Program-made: the position numbers and the translations under genes
IMG/VR virus record: IMGVR_UViG_3300005855_000003
Span: 1-35,397 of that record
Reading direction: 5' to 3' (one strand)
DNA length: 35,397 nucleotides
Source: a virus
Part shown: positions 1,867-26,090 of the stretch, piece by piece
Position numbering within the stretch: the stretch's first letter is position 1
How the letters are laid out: every line of letters starts with the position of its first letter
The notes under the pieces: generated by a model
The model's database searches: none
Told to the model about the DNA's origin: nothing
The model's input: the letters and a program-made list of their open reading frames with translations, nothing else

Positions 1867-1872
1867 CACTTG
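1867..1872 (-). promoter_or_regulatory. CAAGTG box before membrane-protein/terL genes
   Basis: On the minus strand CAAGTG-AGATT-GGTGA precedes the ATG of the small membrane protein, 23 nt from the first base of the box to the start. It is one of twelve phage copies. Confidence 0.6.
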
Positions 1873-1874
1873 GG

Positions 1875-1890
1875 CAAGTGTGGATGGTGA
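1875..1890 (+). promoter_or_regulatory. CAAGTG box and Shine-Dalgarno before portal
   Basis: CAAGTG-TGGAT-GGTGA ends 5 nt before the portal ATG. The box begins 21 nt upstream of the start codon, within the 21-26 nt range seen at all twelve copies. Confidence 0.65.
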
Positions 1891-1895
1891 TTAGC

Positions 1896-3824
1896 ATGTT
1901 GAAGAAGTTGCGGGAATTAGTGCAAAAGTGGCTTTACAGAGACGCAGCAGGGGAAGTCTACTTCGTTGAAACCGACACACCTAAAAGCCCACTTACAGAC
2001 ATTATCCGCAATCCTATCGTGCGGGCTGCCTTAAGCCGAATTAGCAATTCCGCCGCTTCAGTGCCATTGTTGGTCTACAACGGCGAATTTGAATTGAGCG
2101 AAGACGACCCAAACTTCGGGCACTTAGCGAAATCAGTCGCCGTCGGGCTTAACAACAACGACTTTACCGCCACGACCGTAACCGACCTAATCGTCTTCGG
2201 AAACTCCTACTGGCTTATCCGCAAAGTCGGTCGACGATTTTTGGGGCTTGACTACATCCATCCGAGCAACATTAGTTTCAGCCTTGACGGGAAAGAAGCC
2301 CAACTCATGACTGCCGACCGAGTTGTGACCGTTTCGGTAGACGATATCGCGCACTTCAAATTGCCCGACCCGACCGACCCTAAAGCCTTAGGCTTATCGC
2401 TTCTTTACTCCATTCAAAACGCTGTCACGCTTATCAACGAATGCGACCGCCTGTTAGCCGAGTATCTCTTTCACGGCGCACAACCCTTAACCATTCTAAT
2501 CACTAAGTCTTCATTACCCGAAGCGACGAAACAACGCATTATTGAGCGCATTCAAAGTAGGCACGGGCGGGGGCAAAGGTTTAAGTGGCTTTTGCTTGAA
2601 GGCTCTGACTATGACACGAAGACGATAGACACTTCCTTTAAGGCGGGCGACTTGGTTGAAATGCGCCGCATCCTGCGAGAAGAAATCTTAGCCTGTCTCA
2701 ATGTGCCACCCGCTGTCGTCGGGATTTATGAGTATGCTAACTATGCCAACGCAAGGGAGCAAACAAAAATTTTCTGGCGGGAAACCATAATCCCGCTACT
2801 TAGATTAACTGAGGAAACCCTTAACACTCAATTCTTCCCGAAGGTCAACCCGCAACTTTGGTGCGCCTACGACCTTAGTCAAGTTGAAGCGCTCAAAGAA
2901 AACATTGCCGAAGTCGCTAATTCGCTCGGCAATCTTGTTGACAGAGGCATTATCACCATTAACGAAGCCCGTGAAGTGTTAGGTTTCCAAGACCCGCTGC
3001 CGTGGGGCGATAGTTGGTGGGGCAACCTCAATATCGTGCCTATCGCACAGCAAAAGCCACAACAAACCAAATCGGGCGACGAATTGATTGTCGTCACCAA
3101 GCGAATTCCCCGCACTTACAAAGAAATGTGGCTCAAATTCTTGCGGTTGCACGATAGATATGAGCGCCATGTGCGTGAAGCCGTCAAGGATTACGCTCAA
3201 TCGTTGCGCCGACGCCTTAAATCCGACCTTAACGCCTACTTCCGCAAAGACATAACTGACTTTCTCTTTAACCTTGAAGAAGAAGCAGAGGAATTGGCGA
3301 AAGTTTTGTTGCCCGCCTTAGAGGATATTCTCCGAGACACGCCTAAAGCCTTTGAAGTTGAAGTAGACCCGATAATCTATAACGCCAAAGTTAAGGCTCG
3401 GCTAATGACCTTCAAGCGCCGAATTCGCTGGATTACCGAGACGACTTGGGAGCAACTTAGGCAAAAACTTGGCGACGCTCTGGCTGAAGGTGGCGGTTGG
3501 AGCGACCTAATCGGGGCGGTTGAAGAAGTTTTGGGCGACCTTGAAACTTGGCGTGCCGAGAGAATTGCCCGCACTGAGACGACTGCAGCGCTTAACATGG
3601 GCTATGAGGAAAGCCTTCGTGCTGTAGGCGTTAAACGCAAAATGTGGGTTACCGCCCACGATGAAAGGGTTAGAGAGAGCCACCAACAAATGGAAGGCGT
3701 CGTCGTTGATTTAGACGACTACTTCGTGCTGCCTTCGGGCGCAAGGCTTCGGTTTCCCTGCGACCCGGAAGGTCAACCCGAAGAAGTTATCAATTGCAGG
3801 TGCACAATCGTGCCCGTAGACTAG
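1896..3824 (+). CDS. Portal protein fused to a MuF/SPP1 gp7-like minor head domain
   Basis: The portal is the dodecameric ring at the capsid vertex through which DNA enters and leaves. The N-terminal ~380 residues look like an HK97-type portal (for example GNSYWLIRK, then LGLSLLYS and ILACLNVPPAVVG). The C-terminal ~250 residues match the MuF minor head family, with ARTETTAALNMGYEES, DERVRESHQQMEG, and the typical ending EEVINCRCT. The two functions are usually separate genes, so this is a fusion. I chose the ATG at 1896 because GGTGA lies 5 nt upstream; a GTG at 1878 would fall inside the CAAGTG box. The protein has 642 residues. It heads the rightward morphogenesis block. Confidence 0.9.
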   Translation: MLKKLRELVQKWLYRDAAGEVYFVETDTPKSPLTDIIRNPIVRAALSRISNSAASVPLLVYNGEFELSEDDPNFGHLAKSVAVGLNNNDFTATTVTDLIVFGNSYWLIRKVGRRFLGLDYIHPSNISFSLDGKEAQLMTADRVVTVSVDDIAHFKLPDPTDPKALGLSLLYSIQNAVTLINECDRLLAEYLFHGAQPLTILITKSSLPEATKQRIIERIQSRHGRGQRFKWLLLEGSDYDTKTIDTSFKAGDLVEMRRILREEILACLNVPPAVVGIYEYANYANAREQTKIFWRETIIPLLRLTEETLNTQFFPKVNPQLWCAYDLSQVEALKENIAEVANSLGNLVDRGIITINEAREVLGFQDPLPWGDSWWGNLNIVPIAQQKPQQTKSGDELIVVTKRIPRTYKEMWLKFLRLHDRYERHVREAVKDYAQSLRRRLKSDLNAYFRKDITDFLFNLEEEAEELAKVLLPALEDILRDTPKAFEVEVDPIIYNAKVKARLMTFKRRIRWITETTWEQLRQKLGDALAEGGGWSDLIGAVEEVLGDLETWRAERIARTETTAALNMGYEESLRAVGVKRKMWVTAHDERVRESHQQMEGVVVDLDDYFVLPSGARLRFPCDPEGQPEEVINCRCTIVPVD

Positions 3825-3850
3825 GCTTGTTGATTTGGTTGGGCGACGAC

Positions 3851-3866
3851 GAAGTGCGAATGGTGG
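3851..3866 (+). promoter_or_regulatory. Degenerate CAAGTG-type box before the tRNA-like element
   Basis: GAAGTG-CGAAT-GGTGG matches the phage upstream motif except for its first base. A GTG codon 26 nt downstream opens a 26-codon frame (3877-3957, VLTTLKPKVAGVGSG then CNSRRLHLVQV) that could be a tiny gene; it overlaps the tRNA-like element and is otherwise unsupported. Confidence 0.3.
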
Positions 3867-3943
3867 GGGCGACGCAGTGTTGACGACGCTTAAGCCCAAA
3901 GTGGCTGGCGTCGGAAGCGGGTGCAACTCCCGCCGCCTCCACC
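3865..3943 (+). ncRNA. tRNA-like element resembling the tRNA-like domain of tmRNA
   Basis: GGGGGCG (3865-3871) pairs over 7 bp, with one G-U, with CGCCTCC (3934-3940). Directly inside the 3' strand is a T-arm, GCGGG/CCCGC, around the 7-nt loop TGCAACT, giving a 12-bp coaxial stack followed by ACC. The D-arm position is an unpaired stretch containing GTGTTGACGACG. Next comes a helix CGACGC/GCGTCG enclosing AGCC/GGCT and the loop CAAAGT. A stemless D-loop followed by a long helix is tmRNA-like, and the 3' sequence AACTCCCGCC is typical of tmRNA ends. There is no canonical anticodon arm, the loop has G instead of T at the second position, and CCA is not completed. It could be a degraded tmRNA relic or a new mini-RNA. 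Confidence 0.4.
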
Positions 3944-3948
3944 TTGTG

Positions 3949-3965
3949 CAAGTGTGAATGGTGGG
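3949..3965 (+). promoter_or_regulatory. CAAGTG box and Shine-Dalgarno before prohead protease
   Basis: CAAGTG-TGAAT-GGTGG stands 22 nt (first base) upstream of the ATG at 3971. It overlaps the 3' edge of the flanking intergenic RNA-like element by a few bases only. Confidence 0.6.
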
Positions 3966-3970
3966 TAGGC

Positions 3971-4933
3971 ATGAAAGACATGCTCTATTTGGTCACAAGG
4001 CAAATTGAAACCGATAGCGGGGAAATCTACTCGGGCGTAGCAACAACGGCAGTTAAAGACAGGCTCAACGAAATCGTCAACCCGAAGGGCTGCATTAACC
4101 TTAATGACTACCTTGCTAACCCTGTGCTCCTTTGGCAACACGACCCTAACCGCCCGATAGGCAAAGTCGTCAACATTGAAATCTCCGACGACGCCATTAA
4201 GGTTGACTTCGTTTTCGCTTCCACGCAGTTTGCGCAAGAAATTAAGCAACTCGTTGACGAAGGCATTGTTAGAGGTCTTAGCATTGGCTTCATTCCGAGA
4301 CGGGTTGAAGGTAACACATATGAGGAATGGGAGTGGATTGAAACCTCGGTTGTGACACTCCCAGCAAATCCGCAAGCATTAATTCGAAAGGAGAGTGATA
4401 GCCACATGGAGTTAGTGAAGAAAGGCATTGTGCCTGACAATGACGCAGAATTTCCGCTCTATGAGGATTTTGAGCGGGAGTGGGATGCGGATGAAAGCGA
4501 GAAAAGGTGGCGCAAGTATGTTGGCGTTGAAACTAACGAGGATTTGCAAGACAAGGAAAAGCAGCGCCGCTACGCAAAGCGATTTTTCTGGGCTGACGAC
4601 GAAGCATTAGACAACTTCGGCGCTTACAAACTCCCGCATGTTGATATTGTAGACGGGAAGCCTTACGCGATTTGGCGTGGCGTCGTGGCTGCTATGGCTG
4701 CGTTGCTTGGCGCACGAGGCGGTGTTGACATTCCCGAAGCGGATAGAGAAAAAGTCTATCGGGCGATTGCCAAGTATTACAAGAAGGCGGATAAAGAGCC
4801 ACCTGAGTTTCGGTCTTACACGCCTGAGGAATTGGAGTGGCTTGAAGCGTGTGGGTGGGAAAACCCGCTAAGTTACATTCGCAAGTCGCTTGAGCAATTG
4901 CGCCGAGAGTTAGAAAAAGCGCTTTGCAAGTGA
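3971..4933 (+). CDS. HK97-family prohead maturation protease with C-terminal extension
   Basis: This serine protease cleaves scaffold and capsid N-termini during head maturation. Residues ~1-145 fit the Caudovirales prohead protease fold: the His in LLWQHDP, the Ser in RGLSIGF, and the final strand VVTLPANPQALI. Residues ~180-270 form a second module (YKLPHVDIVDGKPYAIWRG, then AAMAALLGARGGVDIP) found in many phage proteases; it may serve as scaffold. The ATG at 3971 is chosen because GGTGG lies just upstream; translation from a TTG at 3944 would read through the CAAGTG box. The stop codon overlaps the next CAAGTG box, and the capsid gene follows 19 bp later. Confidence 0.87.
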   Translation: MKDMLYLVTRQIETDSGEIYSGVATTAVKDRLNEIVNPKGCINLNDYLANPVLLWQHDPNRPIGKVVNIEISDDAIKVDFVFASTQFAQEIKQLVDEGIVRGLSIGFIPRRVEGNTYEEWEWIETSVVTLPANPQALIRKESDSHMELVKKGIVPDNDAEFPLYEDFEREWDADESEKRWRKYVGVETNEDLQDKEKQRRYAKRFFWADDEALDNFGAYKLPHVDIVDGKPYAIWRGVVAAMAALLGARGGVDIPEADREKVYRAIAKYYKKADKEPPEFRSYTPEELEWLEACGWENPLSYIRKSLEQLRRELEKALCK

Positions 4934-4944
4934 ATTAGGAGGTG
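4927..4944 (+). promoter_or_regulatory. CAAGTG box and GGAGGTG before major capsid gene
   Basis: CAAGTG-AATTA-GGAGGTG begins 26 nt upstream of the capsid ATG. The protease TGA stop sits inside the box. Confidence 0.55.
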
Positions 4945-4952
4945 CTTAACGC

Positions 4953-6131
4953 ATGAAAGAAGTGCTTCAGGAAGTTGAAAAGACGCTTAGTGTCGTTTCT
5001 AACATTGCAGACAAAGTTGCAGCGACCGAGCGCTTAGTTAAGGCGCTTGAAGAGCGTGTCGCCAATGTTGAAGAAGTTTTATCTAAAGGTGTCGTCGGGC
5101 GTGCCCGCATTGAGGTTGAAGGTAAGACCGCACAGGAAAAGTTTGAAAACTTCTTGCTTATGCGGGCGACCGACGAGCAAACTGCTAAGTGGCAAGACCT
5201 TGCCGACGCCTACACTGTCTTTGCTTCAATCCGCAGGTTGCGCCACTTGCCCACTGAGGGTTGGTTGGAGCGCCGATTTGTTGAAATCACTAAGGCAGTC
5301 ACTGGCAGCGACCTTGTTAACTACATTCCCACCACATTCTCTAACCGGGTGTTGCAACTCATTAGGTTGCAGCCGAGCCTTGCCCAAATTTTGCCCCAAG
5401 TTGACATGCCGAGCCAAACCTACAAAATCCCTCTGTCTATCAGCGGGATTAGCGTCGTCTATGTTGCGCCTGCGACTTCAATCACTCTCAGCAACGCTTC
5501 GGCGCAAGGATTGACGCTTGACGCTAAGAAGTTAGCTGCGGGCGTTGAAGTCGCCGACGAAGTTACCGAGGATAGCATTGTAGCGATTATGCCCGAGTTT
5601 CAGGCAGCGTTGGCGCAAGCCTTTGCTGAGGCACTGGAAAACGCTATCCTGAAAGGCGACACTTCCAGCGACGACCCGCTGCTTAAGGTTTGGGATGGGA
5701 TTTTGAAGGGCGCACACTCTATTGACATTGGCACTTTCGCTGCCAATCACATTCAGCAAGCGTGCGCTGCTATGGGCAAGTTGGGCGTCAACCCTAACGA
5801 AGTCGTTGTCGTCGTTAACCCCGCTAAGTTTGCTGAAATAGTCGGTTGGGATGAGGTTAGCACAGTTGACAAGTATGGCGCTCAGGCGACTATCCTGACT
5901 GGCGAATTGGCTAAGGTTTACGGGAAGCCTGTCGTCGTCAGCGCCTTCGTGCCCGCTTCCGTGCACGCCTTAGTCTTCAACCGCCGAGCATTTCTGTTGG
6001 GTGTCAGGCGTGGGTTGCGTGTTGAAACCCAGCGGGATATTGTCAAGCAGACCGACATTTTGGTGACTACAATGCGGGCTGACTTCATTGGCGTGCCCTA
6101 CGACGAGCACTCTGCAGTGAAGTTGGTCTGA
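4953..6131 (+). CDS. HK97-fold major capsid protein
   Basis: The 392-residue protein builds the icosahedral shell. Residues ~1-50 form an amphipathic coiled coil (EVEKTLSVVSNIADK, LVKALEERVANVEEVL), the delta or scaffold region normally removed by the protease. The body has family features: YIPTTFSNRVLQLI, PSQTYKIPLS, a central ALAQAFAEALENAILKG helix, and a C-terminal VETQRDIVKQTDILVTTMR that completes the P domain. The start has a strong GGAGGTG 9 nt upstream. Its place right after portal and protease is the standard head order, and a strong terminator follows. Confidence 0.92.
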   Translation: MKEVLQEVEKTLSVVSNIADKVAATERLVKALEERVANVEEVLSKGVVGRARIEVEGKTAQEKFENFLLMRATDEQTAKWQDLADAYTVFASIRRLRHLPTEGWLERRFVEITKAVTGSDLVNYIPTTFSNRVLQLIRLQPSLAQILPQVDMPSQTYKIPLSISGISVVYVAPATSITLSNASAQGLTLDAKKLAAGVEVADEVTEDSIVAIMPEFQAALAQAFAEALENAILKGDTSSDDPLLKVWDGILKGAHSIDIGTFAANHIQQACAAMGKLGVNPNEVVVVVNPAKFAEIVGWDEVSTVDKYGAQATILTGELAKVYGKPVVVSAFVPASVHALVFNRRAFLLGVRRGLRVETQRDIVKQTDILVTTMRADFIGVPYDEHSAVKLV

Positions 6132-6147
6132 AACTAAGGTAGACAGC

Positions 6148-6192
6148 GCAGGGGCGGGGGTCTAACCGCTCCCCGCCTCTGCTTTTTATTTT
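6148..6192 (+). terminator. Rho-independent terminator after the capsid gene
   Basis: GCAGGGGCGGGG (6148-6159) pairs with CCCCGCCTCTGC (6171-6182) over 12 bp, with one G-U, and is followed at once by TTTTTATTTT. It would separate the head operon from the connector/tail genes, which then need their own promoter in the next 500 bp. Confidence 0.9.
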
Positions 6193-6289
6193 GCGAAATC
6201 TAAGCCAGCCAACCTTACCCTGCCCGCCCCACTGCGTTATCCCGCCTCGGTCGGCGCGGATAGGCGAATTCACTTCGTTGCCCCGCCAC

Positions 6290-6315
6290 ATCGAATTTAT
6301 TTGAATAAATTCAAT
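6290..6315. promoter_or_regulatory. 26-bp AT-rich palindrome, copy 1
   Basis: The arms are ATCGAATTTATT and AATAAATTCAAT around a TG centre, with one arm mismatch. Near-identical copies lie at 21326-21351 and 25072-25097. Read on the minus strand this copy has GGCTCGG just upstream, as copy 3 has on the plus strand. A dimeric regulator site is the likeliest role. Confidence 0.65.
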
Positions 6316-6390
6316 CCCGAGCCCGACTTTATCTACGGGGCACACCCAACCCTCAAAACTTCAGTGACTAAAAGTCTCTTTAAGGTTAAA

Positions 6391-6410
6391 GTCTTTGTCA
6401 TGACAAAGAC
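6391..6410. promoter_or_regulatory. Perfect 20-bp palindrome with GTCATGAC core
   Basis: GTCTTTGTCATGACAAAGAC is its own reverse complement. The core GTCATGAC also centres a perfect 22-bp palindrome at 24916-24937, and both are preceded by TTAAAGT. This suggests an operator for a dimeric phage regulator; the regulator is not identified. Confidence 0.6.
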
Positions 6411-6467
6411 CTCGCGATTTGGGAAAAAGTTGGTAACTCAAATTATCTATTTTTGCCACACACCACA

Positions 6468-6564
6468 TAGGGTTGTATATTACAAAATCCGCCAAAATGC
6501 GGGCAAAATCGCCCAAAATAGCGTCAAAATCGGGTGGGGTTTCGCTTCAGAAATCTACAACCTT
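6468..6564. repeat. Phased CAAAAT box array flanked by inverted GGTTGTA elements
   Basis: CAAAAT begins at 6483, 6493, 6504, 6514 and 6525, spacings of 10, 11, 10 and 11 bp, so all five boxes face one side of the helix. TAGGGTTGTATAT (6468-6480) lies to the left and an inverted relative, AAATCTACAACCTT (6551-6564), to the right. TAGGGTTGTATAT recurs at 24759-24771. In-phase A-tracts bend DNA and are typical of initiator or activator binding regions. A replication origin or the promoter of the connector/tail operon is plausible. From 6193 to 6719 I see no gene. Confidence 0.6.
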
Positions 6565-6697
6565 ACCTACTTCGTAAAAAGTGATATGGAAACTCAATTT
6601 GGATGACAAAGCATGTTTTTGGCAAGGCGTTATGTAAATTTTTTGTGGGGGCACAACCTTAGCTTGCTCTAACCTTCTGAGAATTTCCGAGTAGTAG

Positions 6698-6713
6698 CAA
6701 GTGTGCATGGTGA
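6698..6713 (+). promoter_or_regulatory. CAAGTG box and Shine-Dalgarno before first connector gene
   Basis: CAAGTG-TGCAT-GGTGA begins 22 nt upstream of the ATG at 6720, after more than 500 bp of non-coding DNA. Confidence 0.65.
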
Positions 6714-6719
6714 AGCTGA

Positions 6720-8850: not shown

Positions 8851-8866
8851 CAAGTGTTAGGGGTGA
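8851..8866 (+). promoter_or_regulatory. CAAGTG box and Shine-Dalgarno before tail tube gene
   Basis: CAAGTG-TTAGG-GGTGA directly follows the TAG of the tail terminator gene and begins 23 nt upstream of the tail tube ATG. Confidence 0.6.
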
Positions 8867-8873
8867 TAGCGAA

Positions 8874-9707: not shown

Positions 9708-9908
9708 ATGTTGACACGCTACGAGCGTGAAATACTTTACATTGCTGCCATGAAAGAAGGCGTAGACGAATTCTGCAAGCGTGTAGGCTTAAGGGAGCGT
9801 GATTTTTGGAAGTTGGTGAAGAATGGGATAGGCGTCGCCGAGCCTATAGTGAGAGAGCGCTGGCACGACATACTCAAAGTATTAGATTGCCGAGGTGACC
9901 AAAAATGA
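9708..9908 (+). CDS. Small helix-turn-helix-like protein in the tail cluster
   Basis: This 66-residue, all-helical protein has the segment DEFCKRVGLRERDFWKLVKN followed by GIGVAEPIVRERWHDILKVL. The spacing resembles a Cro/XRE-type HTH (helix, G-L-turn, recognition helix, N-G). It overlaps the next gene by four bases (ATGA). In this position it could be part of the tail-assembly chaperone system rather than a DNA-binding protein. AAGGTGA lies 7 nt upstream of the ATG. It is the only HTH-like candidate noticed in the phage. Confidence 0.6.
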   Translation: MLTRYEREILYIAAMKEGVDEFCKRVGLRERDFWKLVKNGIGVAEPIVRERWHDILKVLDCRGDQK

Positions 9909-10361: not shown

Positions 10362-10377
10362 CAAGTGTGTTTGGTGA
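10362..10377 (+). promoter_or_regulatory. CAAGTG box and Shine-Dalgarno before tape measure gene
   Basis: CAAGTG-TGTTT-GGTGA begins 22 nt upstream of the tape measure ATG and 4 nt after the stop of the frameshifted chaperone frame. Confidence 0.65.
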
Positions 10378-14393: not shown

Positions 14394-14778
14394 CGAAAGG
14401 GATACTCGGTTTGCAGGCATTATCAACGATTACAATTCGCGGGTCTATGTCGTTAGCGACTTAATTGATGCACTATCAAGCGTAATCCCGACCGAGTTTG
14501 AGGATATTGAGACAGTCATTGAGCCGTCAAGAAACAATTACTACACCTACACCTTCTTTGTGCCTGTCAGGTTTGATTTCAGTCAAGCAAGCGAATTGAT
14601 TGTGCAATATTTGAGCCCGACGCACGAAGGTTGGCATTTTGAGACTAAGTTTTTTGACCGCCAAGTCGGAGAAGCTGCTTGGGTTAACATAGTGGGCGAA
14701 GAATTTCAGGTCATTAAAGACTACAAAGTCATTCACAAATTCCCGCCAGTAAAGAAGCCAATCGGAGGTGGTCGTTGA
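14386..14778 (+). CDS. Uncharacterised tail-cluster protein
   Basis: The 130-residue protein has a helical start (YVVSDLIDALSSVIPTEFED) and a strand-rich remainder (YYTYTFFVPVRFDF, EGWHFETKFFDRQVG). No family is recognised. GGAGGTGA lies 12 nt upstream within the preceding gene. Its 3' end carries the Shine-Dalgarno of the hub-like gene, with the stop codon just before that start. Confidence 0.66.
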   Translation: MADERDTRFAGIINDYNSRVYVVSDLIDALSSVIPTEFEDIETVIEPSRNNYYTYTFFVPVRFDFSQASELIVQYLSPTHEGWHFETKFFDRQVGEAAWVNIVGEEFQVIKDYKVIHKFPPVKKPIGGGR

Positions 14779-14779
14779 A

Positions 14780-16429
14780 ATGAGCGTTGAAATCACAATC
14801 AAAAAAGCGCCAGCGAGTTATTTCGGCGTGCCCGCCGCAACTTCACCTGTCGGCACGATTAGCGTCTTAGACGCTATGGATTTCCAAGAAAAGACCGTTG
14901 TGCCTATAGGCGGGCGTTACTTCGTCGTCGAGAAAATCACACCGCCCGAGGGTAGCGCAATTCAATTTACTGAAACAAAAGTTTTTATTGAGTTGCCAAC
15001 TTACCTCGAAGATATTACCGACAAAATTAAGGCTGACATATTTTGCTACCCACTAATCTTGCGTGGGCAACGAGCGGCTTACCTTGAGGCGGGGCAAGTA
15101 GTGCAAGTTGAAGCAAGTGCGTGCTGCAACTTCAAAATTGTCAAAGCGCCCTACGCACAAGTCGCTTGGTGGGTTAACTTGGTAGAATTCTACGAGTTTA
15201 ACCCGTCGGGAGGCCCGGCGATAGGCTTCCCAAACAGTTACATTCAAGTAACGCCGACCAAAGCGCCTGCAGGCGGCGATTTTTACGACATAACCGCTAC
15301 GATATTCCCGATTACGCCCGACCCACGCTCTAACCCAATCTTAGTCTTAAAGTTGCAGCAAGGCAAAGAAGTCAAGCAATACTTCTTCACTAACTACTTC
15401 ATGCCTGTGTCACCTGAATTCAAAGTTTCGTTAACTGGGCGGGCGGCGTTTCAAGTATTTCGCTACCTCTTTACGCAACAACTCAATTTAGGTTTTACAG
15501 GTTACATCCTAACCGACGGCTGGAATGGTCTTCAATGGCTGCAAGTGCCGCCCTATCCCACTAAGTCAACGAAAGCGCCCTTCATTTTCCGTAAAGCAAT
15601 ATCTCTAACCCAGCCAACTTATGTCACTTCGGGTAACTTAACTGATTTACAAGGCGTAACACAATTGCAGTGGGGTTGGCGGGATTGCTCGTTTACGAGT
15701 TATAGCCCAGTAGAATTGGGGGATATTGTTGTTGTGCAGGTTAGTGTTGACGGAAACGATTTTCAATGGCTTTACAAGGTTATCAGTGTTGACCAAAGAG
15801 TGCGGGGCAACGAAACGGTCTACGAAGTCAAAGCGACACACCCAATCTATATGCCAGGTAGCATTGTGCGTCAATCTTTCCGCCCGCATCTGCTTACGAC
15901 GGATTTGTTTGTGACAGTTATAAAATCCTTGGCACATTATCCTAAAAACATTATGCTTGACCCCACTTACCAGGGGAAATGGCTCTTTGATAAAGAGCAA
16001 CGCACTTTCAACACGCTACACGAAGCTTTAGATTATCTAATGCAGCACTTAAGCCCAAGACCGACTTTGCTCGTAGACAGTAACGGAAACATTTCTATCG
16101 TGCCTGCTTCTAACCTTAGCCCCGCTTCGCTACCTAATGCTATTGCAATTCAAATTACGACAAGCAAAAATGAAAGCACCAACACGGTTAGGGTTTCACC
16201 CACGGGGGTCTTCAAATCAAGCTTAACAACATCTCGAGGCGTTTATGTGTCGACAACCTACCCGATAGATTATCGACGGGAATATCATTTCGCAGGTTTT
16301 TGGTTTTATCAGGTGGGCACGCCTGTGCGAAACATCAACAATCAAATCGAGTGGGTCGAAGATGTTAATTGGCGTGCTGACGCAGCAGGTGAAATCTTTA
16401 CTACGCTCAAAGTTGTGAAATACGCATAA
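14780..16429 (+). CDS. Tail hub/baseplate-like protein
   Basis: The ATG at 14780 is chosen because GGAGGTG ends 9 nt upstream; a GTG at 14768 lies inside that site. The 549-residue protein is beta-rich in its first two thirds. Its latter part (LGDIVVVQVSVDGNDFQWLY, then a helix HEALDYLMQHLSPRPTLLVD and NGNISIVPAS) resembles baseplate hub or tail-associated proteins, in which a domain with 'g.~l.d.L..l' is followed by 'v...G.l.i.p'. Hub is an inference from this pattern and from gene order. Confidence 0.6.
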   Translation: MSVEITIKKAPASYFGVPAATSPVGTISVLDAMDFQEKTVVPIGGRYFVVEKITPPEGSAIQFTETKVFIELPTYLEDITDKIKADIFCYPLILRGQRAAYLEAGQVVQVEASACCNFKIVKAPYAQVAWWVNLVEFYEFNPSGGPAIGFPNSYIQVTPTKAPAGGDFYDITATIFPITPDPRSNPILVLKLQQGKEVKQYFFTNYFMPVSPEFKVSLTGRAAFQVFRYLFTQQLNLGFTGYILTDGWNGLQWLQVPPYPTKSTKAPFIFRKAISLTQPTYVTSGNLTDLQGVTQLQWGWRDCSFTSYSPVELGDIVVVQVSVDGNDFQWLYKVISVDQRVRGNETVYEVKATHPIYMPGSIVRQSFRPHLLTTDLFVTVIKSLAHYPKNIMLDPTYQGKWLFDKEQRTFNTLHEALDYLMQHLSPRPTLLVDSNGNISIVPASNLSPASLPNAIAIQITTSKNESTNTVRVSPTGVFKSSLTTSRGVYVSTTYPIDYRREYHFAGFWFYQVGTPVRNINNQIEWVEDVNWRADAAGEIFTTLKVVKYA

Positions 16430-16431
16430 AT

Positions 16432-16447
16432 CAAGTGCGAATGGTGA
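16432..16447 (+). promoter_or_regulatory. CAAGTG box and Shine-Dalgarno before repeat-containing tail protein
   Basis: CAAGTG-CGAAT-GGTGA begins 22 nt upstream of the ATG at 16454. Confidence 0.65.
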
Positions 16448-17343: not shown

Positions 17344-17360
17344 CAAGTGTGTTGGGGTGA
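17344..17360 (+). promoter_or_regulatory. CAAGTG box and Shine-Dalgarno before last rightward tail gene
   Basis: CAAGTG is followed by six bases and GGTGA, beginning 23 nt upstream of the ATG at 17367. Confidence 0.6.
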
Positions 17361-17366: not shown

Positions 17367-17834
17367 ATGACTGAGACGAAAGACTTCGTAAAAATCGTCG
17401 GGATTGTTGAAGTGACGCTCAAAGACGCTGCGACAGGCGAAATCATCCATAGAGAGCAGGGCTACAACACTATAGTTGCACAAGGTAAGGCTTATATGCG
17501 CAGAAATATTATCCAGCACAGCACGCAGTATAACGGAAACTATCTTTGTTTGTCGGGGTCAAGCAGCACACCAAGCGATGGCGAAACTTCTGTGCCGAGC
17601 TTGATTACGCCCGTAAAAACCGCTACGAAGTCTATCGTAACCGAAGGCGGGGCGGAATACATGCGTTGGGAAGCGACTTGGGCAACGTCTGAAGCAAACA
17701 CAACGATTTACAGCGTAGCGATTGCGGAAAATTCTGATGGCACGGGCGAGTGGGCTCGCTATGTGTTTTCAAACGCAATTAACAAAACGAGCACACAAGA
17801 ATTGACTATCACTTACTCCATCTTGCTACAGTGA
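17367..17834 (+). CDS. Tail/fibre-associated protein
   Basis: The ATG at 17367 is preferred over a TTG at 17361, with GGTGA 6 nt upstream. The 155-residue beta protein (EVTLKDAATGEIIHREQGYN, then WATSEANTTIYSVAIAENSD) resembles small virion proteins of other phages in which an 'i...GyNti...G...~~r' segment is followed by a receptor-type sandwich. It is the last rightward late gene and overlaps the convergent sigma-like gene by 9 bp. Confidence 0.6.
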   Translation: MTETKDFVKIVGIVEVTLKDAATGEIIHREQGYNTIVAQGKAYMRRNIIQHSTQYNGNYLCLSGSSSTPSDGETSVPSLITPVKTATKSIVTEGGAEYMRWEATWATSEANTTIYSVAIAENSDGTGEWARYVFSNAINKTSTQELTITYSILLQ

Positions 17835-18476
17835 GAGAAATTCAGTAAGTTTCATTTTTAAGCGCTTAAAATGGGCGTCAAAGTCGTCAATCATGAAGCG
17901 CAATTCGTCAACTTCGTAGCCTTCCATGATTTTGATTGCTATTTCGCGCTCGGCGTCGGGCAACTTGGCGATAAAGTCACGCAACTCAACTTGATTGATA
18001 GGGAAGTCTTCTGTGCCGAAGATAGCTAAATTTTTAGCGTCTGCGTCGTCGTCGTTGCTTGCGGGCTCAATGTCGCTATCTTCGTCGCCTAACAGACTTA
18101 ATGGAATTTTTTCCAGCCGACATTGATTTGCGACATTAGCGAATGCTAAGTTGCGAATTAGCGTTAGAATGCTACCCTTAACATGTTTGCGGATAAATGA
18201 GAAATAATTGTTGCTTTGTTTTAAATTGCGTAGGGCAAAGACGATGCCTTCTAGGCATGCAATTTCTAAGTCTTCACGCACGATATTAGTGAATTGCTGA
18301 TTAACTTTGCGCTCATAGTAATCTATGAGAGCACGATTAATTGGGCGCATTAATTGCTCAATCTTAGCATAAGCAGTGTCAAAATCTAATTCGCCACGAA
18401 AATAGGCTTCGCAGACGCTATTAACTTGAAGTCTAACTTCGTCAGTTTTAGCACAACGCCGCACTTTAGATTTCAT
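17826..18476 (-). CDS. Divergent sigma-70-like regulator candidate
   Basis: The 216-residue protein has two segments like the conserved parts of sigma factors. At about residues 68-110, REDLEIACLEGIVFALRNLK then NYFSFIRKHVKGSILTLIRN resembles region 2 ('DL.QEG..gL..A....n..f..Y....I...i...lR'). Near 165-190, FIAKLPDAEREIAIKIMEGY resembles the start of region 4 ('l..Lp.rer.ii...~G'). Between them is an acidic linker. It may redirect host polymerase to phage promoters. The final HTH of region 4 is weak, so a non-sigma role remains possible. Its start lies inside the preceding zinc-protein gene (11-bp overlap), behind GGGAGGG. Confidence 0.5.
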   Translation of the reverse strand: MKSKVRRCAKTDEVRLQVNSVCEAYFRGELDFDTAYAKIEQLMRPINRALIDYYERKVNQQFTNIVREDLEIACLEGIVFALRNLKQSNNYFSFIRKHVKGSILTLIRNLAFANVANQCRLEKIPLSLLGDEDSDIEPASNDDDADAKNLAIFGTEDFPINQVELRDFIAKLPDAEREIAIKIMEGYEVDELRFMIDDFDAHFKRLKMKLTEFLSL

Positions 18477-19056
18477 TTTCGTTGCCCTCCCATTTGCTCG
18501 ATAAGGTTACCTTGTAAGTTATGTCGCAAGTTAGAAACTCGTTTTTTGCTTTAATTTCAGCACAAACTTCGGGCGGGTGTAGTTTTTTGAAGATTTTGCT
18601 TATGTAATGCTGAAATTGCTCGTAGTTAAAATGTCTTGCGAGCGGGATGTCAGGGCGACGAAACTTTTGAGGGATATAAATTGGGTAGACTGTCAAGCGT
18701 TTAGGGATATAGTTTTTGTTGTAGTCTCCAGATTTATGAATTTGCACAACAAAAGCAGCAGTCGGAGCAACAAACTTGTCTAAGTAAGCTGCTAAAGTTG
18801 AAGTAATCCAGCAATTCTTTGTTGTGCATACTTCACAGGTAGTTTCAAAAAGAATGACTATGTGGCGACAGTGCGGGCATGCAACAACTTGGTCTATGTC
18901 GACAATCTTCAAATCACTCAAATCCGTGCCAACAAATAAGAATCGAAAGGTTGCGTCAGTAACATTTTCTCGCTCCAATCGCCGTTTTTGGTCGATTTGT
19001 AAATCATGCAGCGATTTGTAACCTTTCGCTTCTCGCAATCGCATTCGCTCCGACAA
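18466..19056 (-). CDS. Zinc-ribbon protein of unknown function
   Basis: The 196-residue protein carries a probable zinc site, CPHC at about residue 60 and CEVC about 13 residues later, with a further Cys in TTKNCW. The surroundings are basic, especially the N-terminal helix RLREAKGYKSLHDLQIDQKR. The rest is a mixed fold (AAFVVQIHKSGDYN; YIPKRLTVYPIYIPQKF) I do not recognise. It lies upstream of, and overlaps, the sigma-like gene, suggesting a joint role in late transcription. The start is uncertain: the chosen TTG has only a weak upstream GGTAAG. Confidence 0.6.
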   Translation of the reverse strand: MSERMRLREAKGYKSLHDLQIDQKRRLERENVTDATFRFLFVGTDLSDLKIVDIDQVVACPHCRHIVILFETTCEVCTTKNCWITSTLAAYLDKFVAPTAAFVVQIHKSGDYNKNYIPKRLTVYPIYIPQKFRRPDIPLARHFNYEQFQHYISKIFKKLHPPEVCAEIKAKNEFLTCDITYKVTLSSKWEGNENEI

Positions 19057-19080
19057 ACGCTTACCATAACAACACTACCT

Positions 19081-19239
19081 TTACTTAAGTTTCAACATTA
19101 TCTCTCTCGAGCCACACTTTTTGCAAATGAGACCCTTATCTATGATGTGCTTACTTGAAAGCCAAATCTCTTTCTTGCAACTCCCGCACCAAATTATAGC
19201 ACCGAATTTTCGGCTTGTAAAGGTCTTCTTCTTTCTCAT
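19081..19239 (-). CDS. Small zinc-ribbon protein
   Basis: I place the start at the ATG at 19239, 6 nt after AGGAGA. The 52-residue protein begins with a basic stretch (MRKKKTFTSRKFGA) and contains two CxxC pairs (WCGSCKKE and ICKKCGSRE), a compact zinc ribbon. Such proteins bind nucleic acid or RNA polymerase, but the partner is unknown. It lies between the tail-spike-like gene and the second zinc protein in the leftward block. Confidence 0.65.
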   Translation of the reverse strand: MRKKKTFTSRKFGAIIWCGSCKKEIWLSSKHIIDKGLICKKCGSREIMLKLK

Positions 19240-19261
19240 TGCCGCTCTCCTGTTAAAGATT

Positions 19262-21291: not shown

Positions 21292-21302
21292 TACCTATCA
21301 CT

Positions 21303-21315
21303 CCAGTTTCACTTG
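21303..21315 (-). promoter_or_regulatory. CAAGTG box before the small acidic gene
   Basis: On the minus strand CAAGTG-AAACT is followed by GGAGTGA, starting 24 nt before the ATG. The 26-bp AT palindrome lies 11 bp upstream of the box. Confidence 0.55.
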
Positions 21316-21325
21316 ACCGCCCGAG

Positions 21326-21351
21326 ATTGAATTTATTCAAATAAATTCAAT
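21326..21351. promoter_or_regulatory. 26-bp AT-rich palindrome, copy 2 (perfect)
   Basis: ATTGAATTTATT and AATAAATTCAAT are exact reverse complements around CA. It lies in the 76-bp gap between the end of the primase-helicase gene and the small acidic gene. It could be an operator controlling read-through into the spike/zinc-protein operon. Confidence 0.7.
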
Positions 21352-21367
21352 ACAGTCACCTCCCCAC

Positions 21368-24142
21368 TCAAAATGGAAAGTCTTCTAAGTAGTCTCGCTT
21401 GTCGTCTTGACTATCGCTACCGTCGTCGTCGCTGTTACTTTCGAGTAATGAAGGTGAAGGCGTGGGCTCATTACTGTTTTTGGGCTCAATATTAAGACTG
21501 ACATTGTAACAGACATAGCCGTGCCCCGTGCGCTCCAACCGGTAGTTTGTGTGCTTTAAGTATTCCCTAAAATCTAACTCTCTTACGGGCTTAACTTCGT
21601 TTTTCCTACACCAAGTTTTATAAGCTTCATACATTTCCTTTACTAAGATGGAAGACGAAGGGTTGTCAACGACGCAAGTTTGCAGGAAAGCGCCGACTGA
21701 GTTAGCCCGTAAGCGAATTTCGTCAGTTTCCTCACGCACAGCAGGCGGCAATTCGTGAATGAAGTTTTCCTGTGCGGCTATTTTGTAATAATGACGGAAG
21801 GCTTGGATTACGGCTTGCGTGTTTGCCATTAGAGCTTCAACAACGGCGGGATTGCGTTTTTTAACCCACTCGGTCTCGTAGGGAATGTCGGCGAAGCGAT
21901 AGGGAAACTTAATGACCACGAATCGGTCTTCCAGGGCTTGGCTCTGTTGGTCAAACTTTTTTGGCAAGTGATTAGTTAAAATGAGAAGAATGAAGCTTAT
22001 GGGCATATCTTCGGGGTCTCTGTAGTAGCGTTTTGCGACGATAGACCATGCACCCGTAACCGCTTTGAAGATGTCTAAATTCCAGTTTTTGTCGGGAGTC
22101 TCGTCAATGTAGGCAATCGCACAACCCCTCAGTTTGTAAAGAGAAGCAAGGTTTAGTGTTTCTCCCGTTTTTATGATTGCTGCAGTATTAGTTTGCTGCA
22201 CGAGGTCACCTAACGCAGCTTTAATTATGTCAACTACACTATTTTTACCATTTTGCCCGCCACCGACAAAAATAATCGCCTTACGGTAGATATTTCGTTG
22301 GGTTGCCAACACTGTGCTGACTACTTTCAAGAAATATTCTGCGTTTTCTCTTCCGCCCATGACTTGCGCGAGATAATCAACAAATGGCGACATGCTTGCA
22401 TTTTCGTCAACAACGGAAGGAAGTGTCTTAGTAGCATAAAATTCACGCTGCGTAATGAAGAAATCTGTGTTGGGAATGAAGTATGTTTCGCCTGTATCAA
22501 ACCAAAGTAGACAGCCATTTTTGTGGAAGGTTATGCGAAGTAGTTTATAGTCTTGAAACTCGGTGGGAATGTAATCTTTCGGAATGTAGGGGAAATCGTG
22601 CGTGACTTTTAATTCGCTGCGGATAACAGTCATTAGTGTCTGTTTAATGAAGGTTTGATTGAGTAGGCGGTTAAGGCTTGCCATGTAGTTTTTTGGAATT
22701 GTGCCATTGTTGTGCATTTTTATGATTTCCTTGAATTCGTCGTGCACCTGTCTAACCGCTTCGTTTACGAAAACTAAAATGTCGCTTTCGTTGGTTTCAA
22801 TCCACTCCAATCTCTCATAGTCAAACCTAAACCAAGACAGGTAGCGTATGTTGTAACAGAAGTTAGGTTGGAGCAACGCAGCGACCTTTTTGCCTAAAGC
22901 GTCGTAATCTTGCAAGTATTCTGTAAAGTCAGCCGACATTCTAACGCCAAACAAGGCTCGGATTATAGTTTGAATAATTTCTTCTGGCACGCCCGCCGCA
23001 AGGGCTTCCTGTCGGAAGGTTGATATTCCAGCGCAACGCTGATTTCCCGTAAGAGGTAACTTAAACTCATATTCTACTGTGTATAACCTATGAGAAATTT
23101 CTTCATCGCTTGCTAACTCACAAATAGTCTGGATGATTTCACGGGCTTCTGGAAGGGTTAAGGCAGCACGACGCATAACCCCAGAAAGTGTATAACACAA
23201 ATTTTGCCTATGACCTTTCCGCCAATAAGGTGTGAGAGACTTGACGACGATTTCTTTAATGCTGGAAGGTGTTGGGGCGGTAGAAAACACGACTTGGGTT
23301 TGAGTTTGGGTTTGTGCCCTGGATGTGTCTTTGAGCCAAAAGTAAAACCAAGCGGGGAGTTGGGCGTTGCGGGTTGAAGCATCAAATGGGCGGATAAACT
23401 CATATCGCCTAATAACGCCATTAGCGACGCCAGAAACCGAAGGTGGGGCGACAACGTAGGAATGATGGCATCTAATTTCAAAGCCTTCGTAACCGCCAAC
23501 GTTTTCTAAGTAAGATTTGCCACCTAAGATTTTAACGATTTCGGCGTCATAAGCACACCAAATGTGGTAGCCACGGAAGGTGCGCACGATTACATTATCG
23601 GGAAAGGCGATTTGCAGAATTTCTTCAATGTTTTCCTCGCTGGCGTGGAAGCCTATATCTTGGAGGAAGCGAATTAAAGTTTCTGTGTTGTCAAAGTCTA
23701 ACGCCATTAAGTTAGAGACTTGACCGAGTAATATAGCAATCCCCGAAGCAATTGGAGCGTAAGTTTCAATCATTCGCTCGACGATTTCGTCATTAATCCG
23801 TTGCTCGTAGAATACTTGGTAGGAATTCTTTGAGTTAGCAGTGCGAATGTTTGCGACCGATGCCAACGAGGGAATTTTGCTGCTTTTACCTGCGACTTGT
23901 CTGTAACCTTGCAAATTGGCTAAAAAGTTACGAAGTTTTTCGGAGAAAGTCGGGGTTTTAAGAAAGGAGCGTAACGCCGAAACGACTTCACTTTCGGGGC
24001 AGTTAAGAATACTTGCCAGCCGTCTCCGAGCGTCGGGGAATGTTGAAGCGTCTAACATTATTTGTGGGATTAGGTAATGACCGACAGGCACGATATTAAA
24101 GCCTTGTTGGTGATACTCACGCCAAGTTTCCGCAACATGCAT
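21368..24142 (-). CDS. Phage primase-polymerase/SF3 helicase (D5-like replication protein)
   Basis: This is the replication protein: primer synthesis plus DNA unwinding. The N-terminal prim-pol domain (about residues 1-290) has the catalytic DFD in LMALDFDNTE near residue 150, a YHIWCAYD strand and SYVVAPPSVSG. The C-terminal D5/SF3 helicase has Walker A GGGQNGKNS near residue 630, Walker B AYIDETPD, sensor ILLILTNHLPKKF and the arginine finger LEDRFVVIKFP. The ATG at 24142 is chosen because AAGGGGTG lies 6 nt upstream; a GTG at 24193 would add 17 residues with a weaker site. No separate polymerase or initiator was seen. It leads the leftward block. Confidence 0.9.
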   Translation of the reverse strand: MHVAETWREYHQQGFNIVPVGHYLIPQIMLDASTFPDARRRLASILNCPESEVVSALRSFLKTPTFSEKLRNFLANLQGYRQVAGKSSKIPSLASVANIRTANSKNSYQVFYEQRINDEIVERMIETYAPIASGIAILLGQVSNLMALDFDNTETLIRFLQDIGFHASEENIEEILQIAFPDNVIVRTFRGYHIWCAYDAEIVKILGGKSYLENVGGYEGFEIRCHHSYVVAPPSVSGVANGVIRRYEFIRPFDASTRNAQLPAWFYFWLKDTSRAQTQTQTQVVFSTAPTPSSIKEIVVKSLTPYWRKGHRQNLCYTLSGVMRRAALTLPEAREIIQTICELASDEEISHRLYTVEYEFKLPLTGNQRCAGISTFRQEALAAGVPEEIIQTIIRALFGVRMSADFTEYLQDYDALGKKVAALLQPNFCYNIRYLSWFRFDYERLEWIETNESDILVFVNEAVRQVHDEFKEIIKMHNNGTIPKNYMASLNRLLNQTFIKQTLMTVIRSELKVTHDFPYIPKDYIPTEFQDYKLLRITFHKNGCLLWFDTGETYFIPNTDFFITQREFYATKTLPSVVDENASMSPFVDYLAQVMGGRENAEYFLKVVSTVLATQRNIYRKAIIFVGGGQNGKNSVVDIIKAALGDLVQQTNTAAIIKTGETLNLASLYKLRGCAIAYIDETPDKNWNLDIFKAVTGAWSIVAKRYYRDPEDMPISFILLILTNHLPKKFDQQSQALEDRFVVIKFPYRFADIPYETEWVKKRNPAVVEALMANTQAVIQAFRHYYKIAAQENFIHELPPAVREETDEIRLRANSVGAFLQTCVVDNPSSSILVKEMYEAYKTWCRKNEVKPVRELDFREYLKHTNYRLERTGHGYVCYNVSLNIEPKNSNEPTPSPSLLESNSDDDGSDSQDDKRDYLEDFPF

Positions 24143-24353
24143 AAGTGACACCCCTTTCTCTACTCGGTCTTGCATAAGCAAAAATCGCCTCACTGAGTGC
24201 CTACCTTGTTTGGTTTCTTCACCTCCGTGCTAGCTTCCATTCCGCCAAAATAGCGGGCTTTTTCGCAAACTACAACTCCATTAGCCTTGCTGTTTAAAAC
24301 ATAGCACAACCAATCGCCAATGTAAAGGAGTGAAGACCTACAAATTTTGGCGT

Positions 24354-24368
24354 TTTTGCTACCAGTTT
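24354..24368 (+). repeat. 15-bp direct repeat, copy 1
   Basis: TTTTGCTACCAGTTT occurs exactly here and at 24601-24615. It overlaps the GGCG/TTTTGC-rich stretch of the control region. Confidence 0.6.
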
Positions 24369-24478
24369 TGGCGGTTTTGCACCAACATGCCTTTTTTGGT
24401 GACGCTCAAAATAGCCTTGCATAAAGCGGGCGGGAAACTTTCTACTTTCGAAACAGCAAGAAGCCTAAAGCAAAAGCA

Positions 24479-24498
24479 GCGGGCGACTGTGCGCCCGC
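24479..24498. other. GC-rich 7-bp hairpin in the control region
   Basis: GCGGGCG and CGCCCGC pair perfectly around ACTGTG. No T-tract follows on either strand, so it is not an ordinary terminator. Confidence 0.5.
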
Positions 24499-24600
24499 CA
24501 CTTCAGGGGTGTCACCTATGCATGACGCTTCAAGCCCCGTAAACGAGGCACTAAAATTTTGCCCTCATTGAAGCCCATTGTAAATAGTGATTTTGAGCCA

Positions 24601-24615
24601 TTTTGCTACCAGTTT
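24601..24615 (+). repeat. 15-bp direct repeat, copy 2
   Basis: Exact copy of TTTTGCTACCAGTTT at 24354-24368, 247 bp away. Both are followed by CGCC- or GGCG-type sequence. Confidence 0.6.
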
Positions 24616-24758
24616 CGCCCTGTTTTGAGCACCCCACTTCCACTTGAAAAGATAAACTGTGCCCCCGTAACCCTACACCAACCACCTCGTAAATTTCCAG
24701 AAAATCTTGCCAAAAATTAATCGGTCACTATATTCCATACTCCTTGCTGTAAATCGGT

Positions 24759-24771
24759 TAGGGTTGTATAT
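24759..24771 (+). promoter_or_regulatory. TAGGGTTGTATAT box shared with the 6.4-kb region
   Basis: This 13-mer is identical to 6468-6480. In both places it lies in an A-tract-rich non-coding region on the same strand as a palindrome with a GTCATGAC core. Confidence 0.5.
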
Positions 24772-24915
24772 CTCACCTTGCGAAGGGTCTCCAAAACACC
24801 CTTATTTTTGGCGGATTTTGACGGCAAAATTTTGATTTTAGAAGGCTTGTCACGACTTAGTGAAGGTGGTTGATAGCGATTTACCAAATTTCGGGGAAAT
24901 TACCCTTAAAGTAAG

Positions 24916-24937
24916 GCATTCGGTCATGACCGAATGC
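24916..24937. promoter_or_regulatory. Perfect 22-bp palindrome with GTCATGAC core
   Basis: GCATTCGGTCA followed by TGACCGAATGC is fully self-complementary. An outer AAAGT/ACTTT pair extends it after a short mismatch. Its core GTCATGAC is the same as in the 6391-6410 palindrome. Confidence 0.65.
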
Positions 24938-25071
24938 TTCACTTTAGAGTGAGTTTCCCAAAAATTCAGTAAATCGGTATTTCCGACCAACATTCTCAGA
25001 TTTTGCGGGCGGTCTCAGGTGGCGGGGTCGGTCTCAGCGATAAAAACGGTAACAGAATGTTAGGCTCGGAG

Positions 25072-25097
25072 ATTGAATTTATTTGAATAAATTCGAT
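25072..25097. promoter_or_regulatory. 26-bp AT-rich palindrome, copy 3
   Basis: ATTGAATTTATT and AATAAATTCGAT surround TG, with one mismatch. GGCTCGGAG precedes it, as on the minus strand of copy 1. It ends 5 bp before the CAAGTG box of the endolysin gene, so it probably controls lysis expression. Confidence 0.7.
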
Positions 25098-25102
25098 TTT
25101 GC

Positions 25103-25118
25103 CAAGTGGGCTTGGTGG
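25103..25118 (+). promoter_or_regulatory. CAAGTG box and Shine-Dalgarno before endolysin
   Basis: CAAGTG-GGCTT-GGTGG begins 23 nt upstream of the ATG at 25126. Confidence 0.6.
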
Positions 25119-25125
25119 GTGTGCT

Positions 25126-25671
25126 ATGACCGACAAATTCCTTCGTTGCCTTCGGTTTGTGCTAAAGTGGGAAGGCGGTCTCAGCAACGACCCAGCGGAT
25201 AGGGGCGGGCTAACGAAATGGGGCGTCACGCAGGCAACTTATGACCGCTACCGCACTGCGAAAGGTCTTCTACTTCAATCTGTAGCCAAACTAACCGACG
25301 CTGAAATGCGGGAAATCTACTGGCACTACTACTGGCTTCCAGTTAAAGCCGACGAATTCGCCTATCCGCTCGCCTTAGCCTTATTTGACACTGGCGTGAA
25401 TATGGGCACGGTCACAGCTATTAGGCTGCTTCAGCGGGCGATTAACGACTTACTTCCGCAGCAAAAGTGGGTAGCGGTCGACGGAGTGCTCGGGGAGCAA
25501 ACTTTAAAGGCAGCCAAAAACTTAGACGCCAAGCGGTTAGCCTTAAAACTTTGCGACCGCCGAGAGGAAAGATACTACGCCATAGTTAGAGCCAATCCGA
25601 CACAGCGGAAATTCCTTCGTGGCTGGCTTAACCGCCTCAATGACCTTCGTCGCTCAATCCAACAACCGTAG
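25126..25671 (+). CDS. Endolysin, glycoside hydrolase family 108 muramidase
   Basis: The 181-residue enzyme cleaves peptidoglycan for lysis. The N-terminal GH108 domain has the catalytic Glu16 in KWEGGLSNDPADRGGLTKWG, followed by VTQATYDRYR. Its substrate-cleft helix contains EIYWHYYW and ALALFDTGVNMG. The C-terminal ~80 residues fit a peptidoglycan-binding domain (VDGVLGEQTLKAA). There is no signal peptide, so export needs a holin. The ATG at 25126 is chosen because GGTGG lies upstream; a TTG at 25099 would translate through the box. It is isolated from the late block and reads toward the integrase. Confidence 0.93.
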   Translation: MTDKFLRCLRFVLKWEGGLSNDPADRGGLTKWGVTQATYDRYRTAKGLLLQSVAKLTDAEMREIYWHYYWLPVKADEFAYPLALALFDTGVNMGTVTAIRLLQRAINDLLPQQKWVAVDGVLGEQTLKAAKNLDAKRLALKLCDRREERYYAIVRANPTQRKFLRGWLNRLNDLRRSIQQP

Positions 25672-25811
25672 AAAGTGATACAACCGAGACGACTTTCGCT
25701 TAGCCGTAAAGCGTGATAACCCTTCCTAACCGCCCGTCGCCCGGGCTTACTTAGCGACATTAACGCCCGCCCAAACAGCAAGCCAAGCATGACAAGTAAA
25801 AGCCACTCCAT
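25575..25811 (-). CDS. Small single-helix membrane protein overlapping the endolysin gene antisense
   Basis: The ATG at 25811 has GAGGTGA 5 nt upstream, an excellent site. The 78-residue product begins with a membrane helix (MEWLLLVMLGLLFGRALMSL) followed by a strongly basic tail (KPGRRAVRKGYHALR). Its last third is antisense to the endolysin 3' end (97-bp overlap), so that part may be constrained by the other strand. One helix plus basic tail could suit a spanin or holin-like accessory, but there is no family match. It lies 14 bp after the small zinc-protein gene and is probably co-transcribed with it. Confidence 0.6.
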   Translation of the reverse strand: MEWLLLVMLGLLFGRALMSLSKPGRRAVRKGYHALRLSESRLGCITFYGCWIERRRSLRRLSQPRRNFRCVGLALTMA

Positions 25812-25825
25812 AACGCTCACCTCGC

Positions 25826-26065
25826 TTAGATTATAGTGATTTCCAGCCAACCATACTTTTCCTGTTTTGGCTTCTTATGGGCTTCCTTCCACGCTTTCAA
25901 TCTTAACAATTCACGCTCCTTCACAGCGGGGTCGGCTATGTGTCGCTCCCAAGCCCGCCGAGAGTAATACTTTCTATAGCATTTCTGACTACAAAACACT
26001 CGGCGCTGCGACCCTGTGACAAACTTCGTGAAACATATCGGGCAAGTCACCAGCCTAAACTCCAT
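25826..26065 (-). CDS. Small treble-clef-type zinc protein
   Basis: The 79-residue protein has two cysteine pairs, CPIC at residues ~9-12 and CSQKC near 26-30 (FCSQKCYRKYYSRRAWERHI), followed by a basic helical tail (LRLKAWKEAHKKPKQEK). 'FCs..CrkkyyrRr' is typical of treble-clef zinc fingers found in phage and HNH-associated proteins, but no HNH residues are evident. The ATG at 26065 follows GGAGGTGA by 5 nt, rather than a codon 15 bp earlier. A CAAGTG box and 12-bp iterons lie upstream, so it may bind its own control region. Confidence 0.68.
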   Translation of the reverse strand: MEFRLVTCPICFTKFVTGSQRRVFCSQKCYRKYYSRRAWERHIADPAVKERELLRLKAWKEAHKKPKQEKYGWLEITII

Positions 26066-26071
26066 AGCAGT

Positions 26072-26090
26072 CACCTCCAACCTACACTTG
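26072..26090 (-). promoter_or_regulatory. CAAGTG box and GGAGGTGA before zinc-protein gene
   Basis: On the minus strand CAAGTG-TAGGTT-GGAGGTGA begins 25 nt upstream of the ATG at 26065. The CAAGTG overlaps the last iteron. Confidence 0.55.

Follow-up and report, generated by a model that had tools for sequence, protein, structure and literature searches.

A Conserved CAAGTG Box Upstream of Structural and Lysis Genes, a Putative Late Promoter Element in a Phage Clade of Thermophilic Armatimonadota

The Prophage and Its Relatives

The window analyzed in this study, a virus record, spans 35,397 bases; positions 1 to about 27,225 are prophage and the remainder is host DNA. Near-identical direct repeats, read directly from the sequence (approximately 1–60 and 27169–27225), mark the prophage edges and adjoin a tRNA-Glu(CTC) gene at 27,238–27,316; they are probable attachment sites. 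An integrase lies within the prophage at 26,193–27,095. The host is a thermophilic Armatimonadota bacterium. Its nearest relatives are Armatimonadetes, with a thioredoxin-reductase-like gene 81% identical in MAG SKW126 and 83% identical in a second genome of the same family.

The phage clade was sampled through 12 viral contigs whose capsid protein is 91–100% identical to that of the window, one of which, L008, is almost the same phage. Alignments of the capsid and of a sigma-like protein (see below) revealed no more distant relatives outside this clade, a portal search over 50,697 phage records returned matches below 60% identity only, and the capsid gene was not found in five genomes of the host's class. 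Two long non-coding stretches, 6131–6698 and 24200–25070, carry repeated CAAAAT-type words and are possibly origin or control regions; the former is cut to less than 140 nt in some relatives. Between 9708 and 10358 lie two small frames, the first with a weak match to a tail-assembly chaperone, and a third frame precedes the tape-measure gene; this arrangement may involve a programmed frameshift.

A Real, Phage-Specific, and Conserved Signal

CAAGTG recurs just upstream of prophage start codons, at the following positions:

1867..1872, minus strand: box of g79 (ATG 1849), CAAGTG-AGATT-GGTGA, back to back with the portal box
1875..1880, plus strand: box of the portal gene (ATG 1896), present in all relatives that span this position
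3949..3954, plus strand: box of the prohead protease gene (ATG 3971)
4927..4932, plus strand: box of the major capsid gene (ATG 4953), overlapping the protease stop codon and followed by N5-GGAGG
6698..6703, plus strand: box of gene 6720, invariant in 11 sites with replaced upstream DNA
8851..8856, plus strand: box of gene 8874
10362..10367, plus strand: box of the tape-measure gene (10384)
14759..14779, plus strand: decayed box position of g549 (14780), reading CAATCG, with a stronger GGAGGTGG present
16432..16437, plus strand: box of gene 16454
17344..17349, plus strand: box of gene 17367
21310..21315, minus strand: box of gene 21291, followed by N5-GGAGTGA
25103..25108, plus strand: box of the endolysin gene (ATG 25126)
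26085..26090, minus strand: box of the zinc-finger gene (26065), the sole site with N6 before GG

A sequence-only reading had already located the twelve intact copies, and its coordinates and strands are all correct, as are the 21–26 nt that it gave from box to start codon, the eight copies with exactly five bases and then GGTGA or GGTGG, and the occurrence of the box on both strands between the divergent genes at 1850–1895. It had seen none at host genes, and the host flank past 27,225 indeed holds no copy at such spacing. The excess over chance that it claimed is borne out: CAAGTG begins at −20 to −28 before 12 of the 29 curated prophage gene starts, against a mean of 0.12 boxed starts, and a maximum of 3, in 3000 rounds of first-order shuffling of the same 60-nt upstream regions. 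Other 6-mers in this interval reach at most seven genes each, the next best being shifted overlaps of CAAGTG itself. Counting both strands, the prophage contains 23 copies in total, 12 of them at gene starts.

By function, the boxed genes include portal, prohead protease, capsid, tape measure, and endolysin, and the majority are structural, tail, or lysis genes. No box precedes primase, integrase, or the sigma cluster; the timing class of all these genes is judged from function alone. The sequence-only reading proposed that the box marks genes that follow a gap or open a block. The gap rule is not strict: the genes at 9708 (18-nt gap) and 12412 (12-nt gap) are unboxed despite their gaps, and primase, integrase, and the zinc-ribbon gene at 19239 are likewise without a box.

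The CAAGTG box is a real, phage-specific, and conserved signal. The pattern CAAGTGNNNNTGGTGA-N4..8-ATG has no match in five whole genomes of the host's class (about 12.8 Mb), and the positional peak of CAAGTG is absent before 227 genes in a 315-kb sample of the nearest sampled host relative; a general host signal is thus rejected. Wherever a boxed gene was examined, no distinct upstream sequence among the relatives (12 contigs) lacked the box. The signal is therefore neither equally frequent before host genes nor lost in related phages, the two outcomes that had been named as fatal to it. Genes unboxed in the window lack the box in relatives too, except g549 (14780), where five relatives have CAAGTG-N5-GG, lost in the window. 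Upstream of gene 6720 the DNA has been replaced several times with CAAGTG constant in all 11 sequences, and the bases between the box and TGG vary among relatives. Only in four contigs, and there only before the divergent gene g79, does TAAGTG take the place of CAAGTG. Matches to the pattern in unrelated viral contigs, almost always one per contig, were taken as chance, and a literature search found no paper tying CAAGTG to a phage promoter.

Geometry of the Box

We collected 83 distinct sites across the clade, permitting 4–6 bases between box and GG. The start codon lies 20–26 nt from the box in these sites, and the Shine-Dalgarno core is GGTGA, GGTGG, GGAGG, or other; the spacing from box to GG is exactly 5 nt in 82 of the 83, which places GG at +6/+7 from the box end and is compatible with a transcription start 6–8 bp downstream. 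A fixed distance to the start codon had been the chief ground for a signal acting at the RNA level, and this ground is removed, since the box keeps its register with GG rather than with the start codon. Constant with respect to GG while start distance and Shine-Dalgarno type vary, the box is anchored as to a transcription start point, unlike a ribosome site.

In the logo of 13 distinct genes nothing rises above noise between −60 and the box, and there is no sign of a −35 element. CAAGTG stands out, together with a T at +10, the GG at +11/+12, and a G at +14. GGTG is preceded by T at 45 of 75 box sites but always by A or G, never T, at the 71 other starts (P = 8e-18, a value that is too strong since the sequences are related and not independent). 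A T cannot pair with the anti-Shine-Dalgarno. Were transcription to start at the first G, the preceding T would lie outside the mRNA, free of ribosomal selection, which fits a −1 base.

A Putative Single-Element Late Promoter

Two settings bear on where transcripts of boxed genes begin. The first is a terminator:

6148..6192, plus strand: intrinsic terminator after the capsid gene, fold −30.8 kcal/mol, with a T tract; conserved in the relatives covering it

With a terminator of about −30 kcal/mol between the capsid gene and the next box, transcription beyond it must come from the box or from read-through. The capsid stop codon and the box are just 76 nt apart in L015, where the T tract ends immediately before the box, and a similar terminator-then-box arrangement is found in L017 and L019. 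The second is the divergent pair of g79 and portal, whose start codons are 46 bp apart with two boxes between them. Seven contigs were scanned to about 100 nt upstream of this pair, and none has a sigma-70-like site that outscores the shuffled average; the best host sigma-70-type promoter (TTGACA/TATAAT, 16–18 nt apart) upstream of the portal, g79, and g151 boxes matches 5–7 of 12 positions, about the shuffled mean.

We consider it probable that the box is a single-element late promoter of the phage, read by a phage-encoded sigma factor and giving short leaders. CAAGTG would be the sole recognition element of these promoters, replacing the −10 hexamer, and would be recognized by RNA polymerase carrying the sigma-like product of 17826–18476 (minus strand). 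Transcription would begin at the GG five bases past the box, which would put the box at approximately −12/−11 to −7/−6; the mRNA 5′ end would be GGUGA.. or GGAGG.., with the Shine-Dalgarno at its extreme 5′ end and a leader of only about 9–15 nt. The box would thus precede structural, tail, and lysis genes needing their own promoter, presumably late in infection, and genes that overlap or closely trail a neighbor would be co-transcribed. Of the three readings first offered for the box, the promoter with very short leaders is the one that gains support; a translational enhancer and an mRNA-processing site are not favored.

Several points count against the promoter reading. CAAGTG is not AT-rich, which is unusual for an element that must melt, and a small phage would have many promoters if each of the eight boxes that one strand carries from 1.9 to 17.4 kb were one. 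Judged by capsid identity, all relatives are close and the clade is narrow. Transcripts could also arise by terminator read-through or from promoters inside upstream genes.

We lean, if only slightly, toward a more specific version of the late promoter. Here CAAGTG-N4-T-GGTGA-N5..7-ATG would form a fused promoter–ribosome-site module of about 25 bp, its transcription start coinciding with the first Shine-Dalgarno base. No fewer than 13 genes of the clade, 12 of them in the window, would have this module in front of them, and a divergent sigma factor of this phage, whose hosts are thermophilic Armatimonadota, would read it without recourse to a −35 element. If this is true, sequence alone would reveal the complete late regulon of a phage group not yet cultured, along with a candidate for its sigma factor; a −10 element need not be AT-rich, and a ribosome site can start at the first mRNA base, which bears on the minimal leader that ribosomes need when a Shine-Dalgarno is present. 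The candidate sigma factor is compact and probably heat-stable.

A Candidate Reader of the Box

The gene proposed to encode the reader lies in a small cluster:

17826..18476, minus strand: sigma-factor-like protein, 216 aa, proposed box reader (profile and fold matches)
18466..19044, minus strand: gene for a zinc-ribbon-like protein, overlapping the sigma gene (weak matches)
19193..19221, minus strand: host-type promoter candidate of the sigma cluster, TTTACA-17-TATAAT with TG before it, 11/12

All four aligned orthologues of the 216-aa protein match NCBIfam TIGR02937 (sigma70-ECF) weakly, below the cut-off, with a best E of 3.7e-5; the window copy scores 19.1 bits against a curated cut-off of 42.9, and we therefore name the protein sigma-like. 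Profile and sequence searches against Pfam, PHROGs, and PDB sequences gave nothing useful. Its AlphaFold model has a pLDDT of 67, only moderate, and the fold matches of this model are mainly sigma factors: SigH, sigma-B, sigma-70, sigma-28 (2.3 Å over 81 residues), and T4 gp55 (Z 7.8). The modeled fold lends strong but not final support to a sigma identity, because helical models readily give middling matches. Residues 160–216 can be superposed on the C-terminal portions of several sigma chains, at large overall rmsd, and the protein thus seems to have a region-4-like end. Such an end is odd where the boxes have no −35 element, and this counts against the reading.

Four contigs with boxes, the near-identical one among them, encode relatives of the sigma-like protein, which is the simplest candidate for the reader of the box; the zinc-ribbon-like protein of the overlapping gene is a possible partner. 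The putative host-type promoter at 19193..19221 is the best candidate in the window and is present in L070 too. It could make the sigma early, or may be chance, since it lies inside coding sequence.

Part of the probability that we assign to a late promoter belongs to another reader, an unrelated phage factor such as a small zinc-finger protein acting with host sigma-A. Zinc-ribbon-like proteins encoded at 18466–19044, 19084–19239, and 25829–26065 would suit this role, and the region-4-like end that finds no −35 element speaks for it as well. Yet the sigma-like protein is the simpler choice and accompanies the box in four contigs, and we regard the unrelated factor as unlikely.

Signals Acting on the mRNA

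As a translational enhancer, the box would be part of the mRNA, immediately 5′ of the Shine-Dalgarno, and would aid the ribosome or a phage RNA-binding protein in de novo starts at genes uncoupled from their neighbor. The closeness of the box to start codons (about 25 nt at most), chiefly in narrow gaps between genes of a single block, agrees with this, as does the often weaker GGTGA site of boxed genes; at 14780, where the window has lost the box, the Shine-Dalgarno became GGAGGTGG. However, start-codon distance and anti-Shine-Dalgarno register vary with box-to-GG spacing fixed, the strong T before GGTG is left unexplained, and early-type genes with gaps have no box. In two genomes of the host's family the 16S rRNA 3′ end, GGATCACCTCCTTTCTAAGG, is without CACTTG, which occurs far inside the 16S of one genome and nowhere in that of the other. 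Extended Shine-Dalgarno pairing of the box with the 16S tail GGATCACCTCCTTTCTAAGGAG was rejected, no complementarity being found in these two genomes of the host's family. We regard an enhancer as improbable.

Endonuclease cleavage at or near the box into short-leader monocistronic mRNAs would equally yield fixed box-to-GG spacing and short leaders, and a tmRNA-like element that is likely processed out lies 5 nt before one box, yet no candidate RNase was recognized among the genes searched and transcription past a strong terminator, or between divergent genes, is left unexplained, making a processing site very unlikely.

Known Phage Promoter Systems

Late promoters of T4, read by gp55, consist of a −10 element only (TATAAATA, an AT-rich octamer), and T4 late transcription needs gp33 and the gp45 clamp. 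The promoter proposed here is likewise a −10 element only, and gp55 is among the fold matches of the sigma-like protein; T4-type partners (gp33, gp45 clamp) were not identified in this phage.

In phiEco32, middle and late promoters carry the element tAATGTAtA with a start 6–8 bp downstream and are read by the sigma gp36 (PMC8948821). The likeness lies in one short element without a −35, placed before late genes, with a phage sigma on host core polymerase (PMC8948821), a use of sigma that would apply here as well. The element here is instead CAAGTG-N4-TGG, the Shine-Dalgarno would open a minimal leader, and gp36 lacks region 4 (PMC8948821), whereas our sigma-like protein seems to have a region-4-like end. 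Late promoters of AR9, AACA-(6N)-TA/G, have a near-identical geometry, here CAAG-(6N)-TG, with a start at the purine after T (PMC5312081). AR9, however, employs a multisubunit polymerase of phage origin, a kind of enzyme not found here, and has leaders of 26–491 nt (PMC5312081). As may be the case here, phage 7-11 relies on a phage sigma with region 4 for late transcription, yet its late promoters, GTAAtg-(16)-aCTA, are bipartite (PMC8948821), and no −35 element is seen at the boxes. The match in geometry with the promoters of phiEco32 and AR9 is a further point in favor of the promoter reading.

Further Elements Near the Boxes

An operator-like palindrome, GAATTTAT-N4-ATAAATTC, occurs in the window at 25075–25094, 21329–21348, and 6293–6312, and also in L012, L014, and L018. 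It lies 8–13 nt upstream of the box at the lysin gene and at gene 21291, and also precedes the tape-measure gene in L014 and gene 6720 in L012. A phage regulator may act on some box promoters through this palindrome.

Between the portal and protease genes, 5 nt before the protease box, lies a 79-nt tmRNA-like RNA without the mRNA-like part (3865–3944, plus strand), also present in L009–L019 and L034 and with a pattern found in this clade only. Box-like letters before this element were considered as promoter proof and dropped: some relatives do not have them, and in others they form the tail of a coding frame. The RNA matches the Rfam tmRNA model with 47.2 bits in the window and up to 57.1 in L019. 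Across 11 distinct sequences every pair is kept, the pairs of one helix covary, and the G-U wobble at the third pair of the acceptor stem, the alanine identity in tmRNA, is invariant. It is possibly an alanine-accepting mini-tmRNA or a processing element.
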